Positions 41,583-48,901 of a stretch of DNA of 64,000 nt are shown here, in pieces (positions within the stretch are counted from its first letter, which is position 1; each line of letters opens with the position of its first letter). A model generated the notes under the pieces. That model saw nothing but the letters and a program-made list of their open reading frames with translations, ran no database searches and was not told where the DNA came from. Origin of the DNA: Verrucomicrobiota bacterium (GTDB lineage: Bacteria > Verrucomicrobiota > Verrucomicrobiia > CAIQCK01); contig JACRQF010000006.1 of NCBI GenBank assembly GCA_016222825.1, forward strand, positions 62,001 to 126,000, read 5' to 3'. Made by a program: the position numbers and the translations under genes.

Positions 41583-42581
41583 ATGAACAAAGTCAGAGTC
41601 GCCGTCATCGGTTTGGGTTGGTTTGGAGAGAAACATTGCGAGGCGCTGTCGGGCATCTCGCACGTCGAGCTTTACGCGCTCTGCGATGTCAACGAGCCGC
41701 GGCTGAAGGAGGTCGCGAAGACATTCGGCGTTGCGAAGACCTACACCGACTACAACAAACTTCTCGCCGACCCCAACGTGGACATGGTCAACGTCGTGAC
41801 GATGTGGGACCAGCACGTCGCGCCGACGGTCGCGGCGCTCAAGGCAGGCAAGCACGTGTTCCTGGAAAAACCGATGGCTTCGTCCGTCGCCGACTGCGAG
41901 AAGATCGTGAAGGCGACCAAGGCGACGTCGAAGTTCTTCACGGTCGGCCACATCTGCCGGTTCAACCCGCGCTACGCCGCCGCCAAGGCCGCCATCGCCG
42001 AGGGCAAGATCGGCAAGATTGTCTCGATGTATGCGCGGCGGAACATCCCCGCCTTCGTCGGCGCCTCCGTGCTGCCGAAGATCGGCCCGATCATCGGCGA
42101 CGGCGTCCACGACACCGACCTGATGCTCTGGTATTCCGGCGCGAAGATCGTGTCGGCCTACGCGCAGTCGGTCAACGTCCGCAAGCTCAAGAACCCCGAC
42201 CTCGGCTGGACGATGTATCGCTTCGACAGCGGCGCGATCGGCGTGCTGGAGGACACGTGGTTTCTGCCGGACACGACGGCGTTCCAGATTGACGAGCGGA
42301 TGGAGATCATCGGCACCGAAGGCTCCATCCACATCCACGAGACGCATCCGAATTTCTCCATCGTGGACAAGACCGGCTGGCACTCGCCTGATACGACCTA
42401 CTGGCCGCTGTTGCACGGCGTGCGTGCCGGCGCGTTGCGCGAAGAACTGAGCTACTTCTCCACGTGCGTGCTCGAGAACCGCAAGCCCACCGTCATCACG
42501 GCGGAGGAATCAGCCGCCGCCGTGCGCGCGTGTCTGGCAGCGGAGAAGTCGGCCGCCACCAACAAGCTTGTGAAGCTGTAG
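41583..42581 (+). CDS. Gfo/Idh/MocA oxidoreductase, cytosolic
   Basis: VRVAVIGLGWFGEKHCEALSGI; GKHVFLEKPMASSVADCEKIV. Confidence 0.92.
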   Translation: MNKVRVAVIGLGWFGEKHCEALSGISHVELYALCDVNEPRLKEVAKTFGVAKTYTDYNKLLADPNVDMVNVVTMWDQHVAPTVAALKAGKHVFLEKPMASSVADCEKIVKATKATSKFFTVGHICRFNPRYAAAKAAIAEGKIGKIVSMYARRNIPAFVGASVLPKIGPIIGDGVHDTDLMLWYSGAKIVSAYAQSVNVRKLKNPDLGWTMYRFDSGAIGVLEDTWFLPDTTAFQIDERMEIIGTEGSIHIHETHPNFSIVDKTGWHSPDTTYWPLLHGVRAGALREELSYFSTCVLENRKPTVITAEESAAAVRACLAAEKSAATNKLVKL

Positions 42582-42584
42582 GAA

Positions 42585-42619
42585 TTGGTGACTTGTAACT
42601 GGTGATTGGTGATTGGGAT
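42585..42619. repeat. Left 7-bp-period repeat array of cassette 1 (TTGGTGA-type)
   Basis: TTGGTGA CTTGTAA CTGGTGA TTGGTGA TTGGGAT. Confidence 0.85.
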
Positions 42620-42626
42620 CGGACAG

Positions 42627-43079
42627 ATGGAAGCCGCGGCCAAGACATACAAGAGCTTCGAACGACTGGAGGTTTACAGAACCGCCAGGGAGTTTCGGAA
42701 GAAGATGTATGACGTGGTAAAGCGGTTGCCTGAGGCCGAGAAATACGGTCTCGCTGGCCAGATTAGAAGAGCCGCCGTGTCAATCACCAACAACATCGCC
42801 GAGGGCCATGGGCGCTATCATTACCTCGACAACATCCGGTTCCTGCTGCAAGCGCGCGGCTCCTTGGCGGAGCTGATGGATGATTTGAACGTCTGCCTCG
42901 ACGAAGGGTATCTACCGCCAGCAGAAGTCGAAGAATTGAAGACGGAGAGTTTTTCAGTTTACAGGCTCGTCAACGGCTACATCCGTTACCTGCGCGAGCA
43001 GAAGGCCGGTGCCAACCTGCAAATCCATGAATCGTTCCCGCCCTACGGTGCCGAAGTTCTCGACGAGGTTTCCGTTTGA
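42627..43079 (+). CDS. Four-helix-bundle protein (S23 / bAvd-like family)
   Basis: FERLEVYRTAREFRKKMYDVVKRLPEAEKYGLAGQIRRAAVSITNNIAEGHGRYHYLDNIRFLLQARGSLAELMDDL. Confidence 0.92.
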   Translation: MEAAAKTYKSFERLEVYRTAREFRKKMYDVVKRLPEAEKYGLAGQIRRAAVSITNNIAEGHGRYHYLDNIRFLLQARGSLAELMDDLNVCLDEGYLPPAEVEELKTESFSVYRLVNGYIRYLREQKAGANLQIHESFPPYGAEVLDEVSV

Positions 43080-43135
43080 CCAATCGCAAATCACCAGTCA
43101 CCAATTACCAGTTACCAATCACCAACCACCACTCC
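43080..43135. repeat. Right 7-bp-period repeat array of cassette 1, inverted relative to left
   Basis: CCAATCG CAAATCA CCAGTCA CCAATTA CCAGTTA CCAATCA CCAACCA CCACTCC. Confidence 0.9.
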
Positions 43136-43136
43136 C

Positions 43137-43481
43137 ATGAAAGAATTCCATCATCTCGGATTGCCCACCGACGACGAACAACCCGGCGAGACCTACGTGC
43201 CCGCCAGCAAGGTCTGGGTCACTGACCCGCTGAAGCACAAATACAAGGTCGAGTTCCTGCGCTTCGAGCCGGATTCGCCGGTCAAAGGCGTCGTCCGCGA
43301 CCTGCCGCACTTCGCGTTCCGCGTGGACAGCATCAAGGCCGCCACCGCGGGTGAGAAGATCGTGCTCGGCCCGTTCGAGGCGATGCCAGGGCTGACGGTC
43401 GTGTTCATCGAGAAAGACGGCGCAGTTTACGAGTTCATGGAGTTCGCCGCCCAACCTGGTGCTACCTCGTGGGGCAAGTAA
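43137..43481 (+). CDS. VOC/glyoxalase-like protein
   Basis: MKEFHHLGLPTDDEQPGETYVPASKVWVTDPLKHKYKVEFLRF; LPHFAFRVDSI. Confidence 0.65.
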   Translation: MKEFHHLGLPTDDEQPGETYVPASKVWVTDPLKHKYKVEFLRFEPDSPVKGVVRDLPHFAFRVDSIKAATAGEKIVLGPFEAMPGLTVVFIEKDGAVYEFMEFAAQPGATSWGK

Positions 43482-44664: not shown

Positions 44665-44670
44665 AGCAGA

Positions 44671-44730
44671 GGGCAAAATCATAAGGGGCAAAATCATGGG
44701 GAATATGATTTTGCCCAACATGATTTTGCC
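44671..44730. repeat. Left repeat array of cassette 2 (15-bp spacing, 2 forward + 2 reverse copies)
   Basis: GGGCAAAATCAT at 44671 and 44686; ATGATTTTGCC(C) at 44705 and 44720. Confidence 0.95.
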
Positions 44731-44747
44731 AAATCCGTTCGCCAGTT

Positions 44748-45557
44748 ATGCCGATTGAACCGCAAACCGAGATTCGGGTGTTCAATCAGGAGCAATTCCA
44801 CGCCATCGACCGCCGCATTCTGGGCGTGATCTTCGAAGTGCATAACGAGTTCGGCCGGTTCTTGGATGAACTGCTGTTCAAACGGGAGATTGCAGCCCGC
44901 TGCTTGGAGCGCGGTATTTGTGCGGCAGAGCGCGAGGTGACCATTCGCGTCAGCCACGACGGTTTCGCGAAGGATTACTTCATGGACCTGCTGTTCGATC
45001 ACGGCTTGATGGTCGAAGCCAAGACCGTCGAGAAACTCGGCCCGTCGCACCGGCAGCAGACACTGAACTACCTGTTCCTGACCGGCATGCAGCACAGCCG
45101 TTTGGTCAACCTCCGCACCGACCGAGTCGAGCATGAGTTCGTCTCCACGAAGCTAACGGCGGCACGGCGCCGCGTCTTCTCAGTCGTGGATGACGAATGG
45201 CGAGACGTGAACACGGAAAGCGCGTGGCTGAAAACCAAGCTGATTGAACTGCTTCAAGACTGGGGTGCGTTCCTCGAAGTGTCGCTCTACCGCGAGGCCA
45301 TCACATGTTTCTTGGGCGGCTCCTCCGTGGTCTGCCGGCCCGTATCGGTCCTCAGCGGTTCAAAGTCCATCGGCAACCAAACAGTTCACCTGCTGACCGA
45401 CGACACGGCCTTTGCCTTCACCGCAGTGACAGCCGCGCGTGACACGATGCGTGACCACCAGTTGCTCTTCCTACAACACACGCCGCTCAAGTGCATTCAA
45501 TGGGTAAACTTCAACCGCCACCGCATCGAATTCACAACACTCACAAAGGACAAATGA
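44748..45557 (+). CDS. GxxExxY-family protein (PD-(D/E)xK-like) with C-terminal extension
   Basis: RILGVIFEVHNEFGRFLDELLFKREIAARC; DLLFDHGLMVEAKTVEKLGPSHRQQTLNYLFLTG. Confidence 0.88.
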   Translation: MPIEPQTEIRVFNQEQFHAIDRRILGVIFEVHNEFGRFLDELLFKREIAARCLERGICAAEREVTIRVSHDGFAKDYFMDLLFDHGLMVEAKTVEKLGPSHRQQTLNYLFLTGMQHSRLVNLRTDRVEHEFVSTKLTAARRRVFSVVDDEWRDVNTESAWLKTKLIELLQDWGAFLEVSLYREAITCFLGGSSVVCRPVSVLSGSKSIGNQTVHLLTDDTAFAFTAVTAARDTMRDHQLLFLQHTPLKCIQWVNFNRHRIEFTTLTKDK

Positions 45558-46882
45558 AACAAGACAATCTCTCAAAACATGATTTTGCCCCCCATGATTT
45601 TGCCATCTCCGCCATCCGCTCTGCCGTCAATTGCCGCGCCGACGAGATCGTCGCGTGGACGAAGAAGTTCGTCAGCTTCCCCAGCGAGAACCGTCCGCCC
45701 GACGGCAACGAAGCCGCCGCGCAGAAATGGGTCGCGGCAGAATGCCGCAAACGCAAGTGGCAGGTGGATGTCTTCTCGCCGCTCGCCGTGCGCGGTATCC
45801 GCAAGCATCCGTCTTGGCTCGAAGGCCGCAACTACCCGAAAGGCCGCGACAACGTCGTTGCGCGCTGGCACGGCACTGGCGGGGGCAAAGCGATCCTTCT
45901 CAGCGGCCACTGCGACGTCGCGCCGTTCGAGCCGGACAACTGGAAGATTTGCCGGCCCTACAAGCCCGTCGTGAAGAACGGCCGGCTCTACGGGCGCGGT
46001 TCCGCCGACATGAAGGGCGGCCTCGCCGCGATGTTCTGGGCAATGCGCATCCTGCAAGACCTCGGCTTCCGGCCCGTGGGCGACATCCTGTTCGAGAGCC
46101 TCGTGGACGAGGAATTCGCCAGCGGCAACGGCACGCTCGCCGCGCGCCTGCGCGGCCACAACGCCGACCTCGCCATCGTCAGCGAGCCGACGCGCATGGA
46201 AGTCAGCCCCGCGTGCCTCGGCGCGTTTCTCGGCGACCTCACGCTCACCGGCAAGGGCGGCATGGCCTACATGGGCAAGGCCATCGCCAACCCGATGAAC
46301 GGCGCCGCCCGCGCCATCGAGTTGTTCCAAGAGTGGCAGAAGGCGTGGCGCGCGCAGAACAGCCACGCGCTCTTCACCGCGCCCGGCAAGCAACTCAACG
46401 TCCTGCCGTGGCACGTCACGACCGACAAGCCCGGCGAGTTCACGCAGATGGGCACGCCGCTGCTCGCGAAGATCGCGTGGATCGTCTGGTGTCATCCCGG
46501 CATGACCGAAGCCGAGTTCTACCGCCGCTTCCGCAAGTTCTGGAAAGAGCACGGCGCGAAAGATGCCGCGCTCCAGCCGTTCGAGCTGACGCTGGAACGC
46601 GCCTACCACTACGTGAAACCGTGGGAGACGCCCACCGACAGCGCCGCCGTGAAAGCCGTCGTCTCAGCTTTTGAGCGTTATCGCGGCGACAAACCCGGCA
46701 TCGGCGGCGCGGCGTTCTCGTGCGACCTCGGCATCTACGGCGAAGTCGGCAAGATGCCCTCCATCCTCCTCGGCCCCCGCGGCGACCATCTGCACGCCCC
46801 CGACGAGTGGGTCGAGATCCAAGACCTCCTCGACCTCACCGGCATCTACGCGACGTTGGCGGCGGAGTGGTGCGGAAGATAA
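45554..46882 (+). CDS. M20-family peptidase/deacylase
   Basis: FVSFPSENRPPDGNEAAAQKWVAAE; LLSGHCDVAPFEPDNWKICRP; GRGSADMKGGLAAMFWAMRIL. Confidence 0.9.
   Translation: MKQDNLSKHDFAPHDFAISAIRSAVNCRADEIVAWTKKFVSFPSENRPPDGNEAAAQKWVAAECRKRKWQVDVFSPLAVRGIRKHPSWLEGRNYPKGRDNVVARWHGTGGGKAILLSGHCDVAPFEPDNWKICRPYKPVVKNGRLYGRGSADMKGGLAAMFWAMRILQDLGFRPVGDILFESLVDEEFASGNGTLAARLRGHNADLAIVSEPTRMEVSPACLGAFLGDLTLTGKGGMAYMGKAIANPMNGAARAIELFQEWQKAWRAQNSHALFTAPGKQLNVLPWHVTTDKPGEFTQMGTPLLAKIAWIVWCHPGMTEAEFYRRFRKFWKEHGAKDAALQPFELTLERAYHYVKPWETPTDSAAVKAVVSAFERYRGDKPGIGGAAFSCDLGIYGEVGKMPSILLGPRGDHLHAPDEWVEIQDLLDLTGIYATLAAEWCGR
45579..45604. repeat. Right repeat pair of cassette 2 (15-bp spacing)
   Basis: ATGATTTTGCCC at 45579, ATGATTTTGCC at 45594. 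Confidence 0.95.
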
Positions 46883-48691: not shown

Positions 48692-48901
48692 GCCGGCTCA
48701 CGAGTCTCCTGAGCCGGCTCAGGAGTGGGCTAGGCCGGCTCAGGAGTGTCCTGAGCTGGCTCAGGCGGGAGCCAGGCCGGCTCAGGAATGTCCCAGGCCG
48801 GCTCAGGCGGGACGTGAGCCGGCTCACGAGAGTCCTAGGCCGGCTCAGGTGTGTCCTGAGCCGGCTCAGGCGACTATTTGGCCGGCTCAGATGTCTCGGA
48901 G
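48692..48901. repeat. Tandem array, exact 21-bp period, 10 units, GCCGGCTCAGG-variable half
   Basis: Units start at 48692, 713, 734, 755, 776, 797, 818, 839, 860, 881 with no indels. Confidence 0.97.

Follow-up and report, generated by a model that had tools for sequence, protein, structure and literature searches.

An S23-family gene between inverted arrays of a drifting heptamer: an inserted cassette and a candidate mobile element in bacterial operons

The stretch of DNA analysed here (hereafter the window) comprises 64,000 nucleotides of contig JACRQF010000006.1 from a Verrucomicrobiota bacterium. It contains a small S23-family gene between a dehydrogenase gene and a gene of 114 aa, the latter without any Pfam or NCBIfam match (Table 1). 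Together with a tandem array of a 7-bp unit on either side, the S23 gene fills the gap exactly, from the upstream stop codon TAG at 42579-42581 to the next ATG at 43137. An earlier note on this DNA had described inverted 7-bp arrays that abut the reading frame and fill an operon gap, and Tandem Repeats Finder and the ends of the coding sequences place them correctly to within a few bases. Abutment on both sides holds for the right array only; on the left the ATG stands 10 nt past the array, an alternative TTG start at 42606 (157 aa) lying inside it. The left arm matches the reverse-complemented right arm with a score of 22.5; among 414 control flank pairs for the S23 loci of the taxonomic class, none reached 16 and 0.2% reached 14. 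As folded RNA, the two arms are predicted to pair with each other almost end to end (z = -4.9 against dinucleotide shuffles). Two other tandem repeats of the window, one of 21 bp with 8.5 copies in a predicted ORF (48692-48894) and one of 21/42 bp (GGTGAATAGAGTTTC..) at 1233-1337, are unrelated to the S23 finding.

Table 1. Coordinates of the S23 cassette, its host genes and a second cassette in the window.
Feature	Position	Strand	Remarks
Upstream host gene, Gfo/Idh/MocA oxidoreductase (dehydrogenase)	41583..42581	+	Profile searches
S23 cassette including both arrays	42582..43136	+	Filled in the window genome and G003; empty in G001, G002
Left arm, about 4.7 copies of ATTGGTG, drifting	42584..42616	+	Tandem Repeats Finder; pairs with right arm
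S23 / four-helix-bundle gene, 150 aa from ATG 42627	42627..43079	+	PF05635, TIGR02436
Right arm, about 7.6 copies of ACCAATC, inverted relative to left arm	43079..43131	+	Tandem Repeats Finder
Downstream host gene, 114 aa	43137..43481	+	90-95% identical in three same-genus genomes
Sister cassette, GxxExxY (PD-(D/E)XK-like) gene 44748-45557	44668..45606	+	Gene between inverted GGCAAAATCATGGGG arrays
Arms of the GxxExxY cassette, GGCAAAATCATGGGG	left ~44668-44730, right ~45578-45606		Unit 13-14 bp

The proposed identity of the gene product as an S23/bAvd-like four-helix bundle was confirmed by two profiles, PF05635 (E = 3.7e-30, 104.7 bits vs a cut-off of 33.8) and TIGR02436 (98.3 bits vs a cut-off of 24). 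The AlphaFold model (pLDDT 89.9) has four helices, and Foldseek returned 2gsc as the best PDB match, together with 2rld and, more weakly, Avd (4dwl with TMt 0.88 and 13% identity; also 8ub7). Both the 2gsc and the 2rld entry hold five chains (A-E), and 2gsc and Avd form pentameric rings. Gln45, Glu59 and Glu82 never vary among 43 diverse S23 members, and Arg48, Ser52 and Asn56 hardly ever do. These residues line one face made up of helix 2 (Gln-Arg-Ser-Asn-Glu) and helix 3 (Glu), which, by inference, might be a candidate for catalysis or nucleic-acid binding. The dN/dS ratio is 0.12 between the window gene and its orthologue in the same-genus genome G003, and 0.05 at a second site (site B, see below). 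Judged from these comparisons of coding sequences, S23 is under purifying selection.

Filled and empty orthologous sites demonstrate that the cassette is an insertion. In two genomes of the same genus (G001 and G002) the host genes are adjacent, with a 17-bp gap and no array between them, so that the discrete inserted element suspected in the earlier note is real, and the finding that would have refuted it, an array at the empty site without the gene, was not made at the site orthologous to the window's. The empty gaps hold an AAGGA Shine-Dalgarno sequence (ACAGAAAGGACCCGACC; GCAATAAGGAACCGACC), which is gone in the window genome and in G003, where the cassette stands in its place. The insertion in G003, a third species, is identical in site, and its right arm has expanded as a 14-bp dimer. 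At site B, between DUF58 and BatA genes, G001 is empty with a clean ATGA gene overlap, and G000, G002 and G003 are filled, with TGA at one edge of the element and GTGA at the other. Between cysD and cysN, G001 carries a cassette and G003 only a single remaining arm.

Clearer evidence of the same kind was obtained from cyanobacterial plasmids. At one plasmid site (site T) the empty sequence is AAAAAGTAATTAAC and the filled one AAAAA-GTAAT-[element]-GTAAT-TAAC, that is, a 5-bp target duplication; the element reads AAATCAG...S23...TTCTTT between the GTAAT copies. Six plasmids that lack the gene have flanks of about 98% identity; the junctions were read in two of the six. Two Nostoc plasmids share an operon that contains a 288-bp gene (287/288 identical between them); one plasmid carries its element ahead of this gene, the other behind it, so each plasmid provides the empty site of the other. 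The heptamers of the two elements, AGGAGTC and GGGAAAA, are not related. Inspection of the junctions by eye gave the following target duplications, some of them ambiguous since arms and targets share letters: GTAAT (5 bp), TTCTA (5 bp, ambiguous), TGA/RTGA (ambiguous), ATTTAA (6 bp, ambiguous), and none at two sites. Arm length shifts by slippage, as seen in the G003 right arm and at site T. In the gap after apt (loci L252, L253, L255, L256 and L257) the array or cassette differs from genome to genome among several genomes (an S23 cassette, short heptamer arrays or GxxExxY-type arrays), as if the gap were a preferred landing site.

The association of S23 genes with such arms is general. Inverted heptamer arms flank all four clear S23 genes of the window genome, and the unit differs from gene to gene (AGAGTTA, TTGGTGA, ACAGTGG and GGATTTT); a fifth, partial match belongs to a longer protein and has no clear heptamers. 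Proteins of more than 200 aa with a partial S23 domain are encoded at two loci (L005 and L062) whose flanks carry GGACA-type repeats, not clear heptamer arrays, and represent a distinct branch kept in the genus. In the taxonomic class, a tandem or inverted flank signal was present at 61 of 69 S23 loci versus 56 of 414 control pairs, and a strong inverted match (score of at least 14) at 57% of loci versus 0.2% of controls and 1.7% of pairs with left and right flanks swapped between loci. A stricter inverted-repeat test gave a strong match for 73% of 78 S23 loci from other phyla (Chloroflexota, Acidobacteriota, Planctomycetota, Bacteroidota, Cyanobacteriota, Proteobacteria, CPR and more). Most genes of this four-helix-bundle family are thus flanked by arrays, so the other outcome that would have refuted the earlier note, a lack of arrays at most such genes, did not arise either. 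Mean flank periodicity stands out only at lags 7, 14, 21 and 28, both in the class and in the other phyla; a few S23 loci have a period of 8, 9 or 10 in place of 7. Heptamer-array flanks were found as well at most of 26 S23 loci on viral contigs; a search of phage records for S23 found none.

The arms do expand and shrink by slippage, and one might therefore regard them as chance low-complexity or locally slipped repeats beside an ordinary gene. The control pairs, the swapped arms, the array-density controls given below and the filled and empty sites leave this explanation with practically no standing, and we consider it ruled out.

Cassettes are co-directional with their neighbours by 48:2 upstream and 50:5 downstream, which makes it probable that S23 is expressed as part of the host operon. 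Two S23 cassettes lie inside CRISPR-cas operons, between cas10 and cmr3 (L342, NZ_CP016476.1) and between cas6 and cas4 (L345, NZ_CP112875.1). A screen for CRISPR association listed the 23S rRNA intervening-sequence protein (IVP) among the domains near CRISPR loci (PMC10910872), and S23 cassettes within cas operons may explain this reported association.

The two arms of a cassette resemble each other far more than chance would allow. Left and right units differ in a mean of 0.98 of 7 letters, versus 3.35 in swapped pairs (82 cassettes with both arms readable). Across cassettes, the similarity of units tracks that of the proteins only above about 60% identity and is near random below, which implies that the word changes fast while both arms continue to share it. 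Arms have about 4.5 units (median 4.4 left and 4.6 right), and upstream arms are rich in G over C (64 units vs 12). Sequence-specific coevolution of unit and protein was considered and rejected, as the Mantel r was only -0.13 and the signal was confined to close relatives. Since the unit follows the protein only above about 60% identity, recognition of particular unit letters by S23 is unsupported, and recognition of structure or period would be required.

Arrays also occur without the gene. In addition to S23 cassettes, an unbiased scan of 864 kb of the window genome found about seven inverted pairs of 7- or 8-bp arrays that enclose only a loop of 7-28 nt in place of a gene; the pairs inspected closely sit between neighbouring genes. 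At plasmid sites gene-less hairpins occupy the position of the S23 element of relatives and are nested in one another, and one of them interrupts an S23 gene. Single arms are left where elements decayed (as at the cysD-cysN site), some of them next to start codons. The tie between array and gene, which held at the window's empty site, is therefore not absolute, as short hairpins and remnants stand alone elsewhere, and at least some of the gene-less derivatives were themselves inserted. Two Nostoc plasmid loci (L357 at ~1240-1430 and L359 at 457-748) carry gene-less elements of the AGGAGTC family with a short structured insert (CTGAATCCCCCAC-type hairpins). Repeats have also turned into protein: an array pair in frame within an inositol monophosphatase gene (G000 C8:260154-260314, in L284) encodes the segments KSKVQNPESKI and NPKSKIGNLKSE.

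Heptamer arrays number 39.1 per Mb in nine S23-bearing genomes versus 1.3 per Mb in eight that lack S23 (p = 0.003 by a one-sided rank test), while control-period arrays are about equally frequent (11.4 vs 9.2 per Mb). The comparison is based on sampled stretches, and the S23-free genomes differ otherwise too, several having a lower G+C; in three S23-bearing genomes (G003, G027 and G032) the sampled stretches contained few free arrays or none. Free arrays match the units of S23 cassettes of their taxonomic family within one mismatch in 63% of cases, versus a mean of 26% for the units of other families. Shuffled units average 35% and reach 76%, so the match is only suggestive.

The short target duplications at some sites and the gene-less, MITE-like copies would also be expected if a conventional recombinase acted in trans, be it a DDE enzyme, a Y1/RAYT-type HUH transposase or a reverse transcriptase, with S23 as a passenger and the hairpins as ordinary MITEs. 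Y1 transposases are present in most of these genomes, and S23 shares the fold of Avd, the partner of the reverse transcriptase in diversity-generating retroelements (DGR). However, no RVT_1 reverse transcriptase was found in the four same-genus genomes (G000-G003), which have 3-9 S23 genes each, and a reverse transcriptase in trans is disfavoured within the window genus. Moreover, no Y1 match was obtained in G011, a 97% complete genome with two S23 genes, whereas the S23-free G018 and G034, with 48 and 15 Y1 matches, have almost no heptamer arrays; a Y1 transposase in trans appears neither clearly necessary nor clearly sufficient. Ends that vary from copy to copy cannot be the fixed site of a transposase, and the target duplication is itself variable (0-6 bp). 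We therefore regard a recombinase in trans as improbable, with DDE transposases remaining outside the survey. If a known recombinase does move the element in trans, it would be a non-autonomous element of known kind.

The main rival separates the arrays from the gene: the arrays would be a self-spreading repeat system of their own, like the STRR and TAACTGA repeats discussed below, and S23 a host-useful RNA-binding regulator living between them. Assembled as a ring of five, S23 would take up about five heptamers of an mRNA, much as the TRAP ring does with triplets, and would tune the translation of array-bearing genes. The long retention of S23 with dN/dS of 0.05-0.12, the strong co-direction with operons, the position of the arrays where a Shine-Dalgarno sequence used to be, and the agreement between arm size and a fold that forms pentamers in 2gsc and Avd would all suit such a regulator, as would the post-transcriptional regulator binding TAACTGA that MacGregor proposed in 2015 (PMC4679880). 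Free-standing binding sites, however, need no match between arms, yet the arms match far above chance while changing between cassettes, and the gene and both arms appear as single insertions. As a full account this reading seems unlikely to us, less so than a recombinase in trans; the regulator and the mobile element may both be true.

We consider it probable, though by no means certain, that the cassette represents a widespread kind of mobile element, bounded by self-complementary arrays that drift but hold a fixed period, and that S23, with its Avd-like fold, acts on these arrays. The insertion, the architecture and matching of the arms, the gene-less derivatives, the purifying selection on S23 and the association of array density with S23 are observed; the part of S23 as a mobility or array-binding factor is inferred. 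Such an element would consist of one S23 gene between two reverse-complementary arms of about 4-5 heptamers each, the unit being free to drift between copies and lineages as long as the period (7, rarely 8-10) and the match of the arms are retained. It would enter short intergenic gaps, mostly co-directionally within operons and often at a stop/start junction, leaving a target duplication of 0-6 bp or a small deletion, and deletion derivatives would arise from it as array hairpins without a gene or as single arms. By inference, the S23 pentamer might recognise the arms in RNA or in single-stranded DNA, whether through their pairing or their repetition, reading structure or period and not letters, and might be needed for spread both in cis and in trans. 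Strand transfer could be an unrecognised activity of S23 or be supplied by the host. It counts against this explanation that the window element encodes no enzyme known to move DNA, and the long-kept S23 of site B with its low dN/dS also fits a host function. To our knowledge, there is no known transposon whose ends drift freely and yet stay matched. If the explanation holds, a pan-bacterial mobile element shapes operons by replacing Shine-Dalgarno sites, splitting stop/start overlaps and entering CRISPR operons.

A second cassette type lies about 1.2 kb downstream of the 114-aa gene. Its GxxExxY gene (TIGR04256, PDDEXK_3) resembles the S23 cassette in having one small gene, inverted short tandem arrays, intergenic insertion and empty sites; its own site is occupied in G004 and vacant in G001 and G002. 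The two differ in that GxxExxY has an unrelated, nuclease-like fold and units of 8-11 bp as a rule, 13-14 bp in the window copy. GxxExxY genes of the class (L096-L124) usually have inverted arrays of 8-11 bp with no peak at 7. One architecture thus surrounds two small proteins that are unrelated, with a different period for each.

A literature search on S23 with repeats or mobility retrieved no prior account of S23 as an array-bounded mobile element, with preprints and most subscription journals outside its coverage. Of the known categories tested, only two fit, namely membership of the S23 protein family and the description of heptamer repeats as such; each of the others fails on a defining feature. 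Insertion sequences and MITEs of the DDE type require fixed terminal inverted repeats common to the copies, which are missing here. With the Avd protein of diversity-generating retroelements S23 shares the four-helix-bundle fold (4dwl, 8ub7), and the kinship to Avd suggested in the earlier note stands at this level; in sequence it does not, as the Avd models scored 20.5 bits vs a cut-off of 40 and 20.9 vs 80. Together with the missing RVT_1 in the genus, this excludes a DGR. REPINs and their RAYTs also have a gene between inverted short repeats and many gene-less inverted pairs dispersed between genes. Unlike a RAYT, however, S23 has no HUH/Y1 domain (only S23 and Avd families match the repeat-flanked gene), the units vary between copies, and arrays of period 7 take the place of one palindrome.

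Heptamer repeats as such have been described before. The STRR repeats of cyanobacteria are intergenic, hairpin-forming 7-bp direct repeats with no function or source known (PMC2670836). The TAACTGA repeats of Beggiatoaceae, cyanobacteria and Bacteroidetes immediately precede start codons, where Shine-Dalgarno sites are few, and an unknown binding regulator was proposed for them (MacGregor, 2015; PMC4679880). Both resemble the arrays described here in being 7-bp, intergenic and patchy across distant phyla, and our gene-less hairpins and single arms beside start codons meet their description. In the portions of the two accounts that were accessible (PMC2670836, PMC4679880), the repeats are not tied to S23 or to an inserted element, whereas S23-type arrays are the ends of an element and the gene-less hairpins its derivatives. 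An S23 cassette of a Phycisphaerae genome (L197) has arms of TCAGTTA and TCAGTTG; the first is the complement of TAACTGA, and the second differs from it by one letter.

A further close counterpart is the intervening sequence (IVS) of 23S rRNA. In Coxiella burnetii an S23-family ORF is accompanied by inverted repeats with a 28-bp stem, the ORF of such sequences having ~120 aa in a segment of ~430-550 bp; the inverted repeats pair in RNA, and the occurrence is sporadic with presumed horizontal spread (PMC4990558). The window element shares the S23 ORF and the terminal inverted repeats that pair in RNA. Unlike the IVS it lies between protein genes and not in an rRNA gene, its arms are tandem heptamer arrays, and its insertion is documented by filled and empty sites. 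No 23S rRNA signatures were found near S23 genes in the loci checked; the only matches were in an S23-free stretch (L306). The S23 element may be the source both of the 23S rRNA intervening sequences and of orphan heptamer repeats. A wider proposal, that S23 and GxxExxY cassettes form a new class without any known recombinase, in which period and mutual complementarity, in place of a fixed sequence, define the ends, with S23 and its conserved face on helices 2 and 3 as the mobility enzyme or its essential nucleic-acid ring and IVS, STRR and TAACTGA repeats as products, is put forward tentatively, as possible and not quite as probable. If true, it would give one origin to the S23-type rRNA intervening sequences and to the orphan heptamers of cyanobacteria, Beggiatoaceae and others, and a role to S23 genes. 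According to the same article, the IVS ORF was proposed as a mobility factor in 1993, and its function and origin were called unclear in 2016 (PMC4990558); with cassettes of the kind described here, the 1993 proposal would become directly testable.
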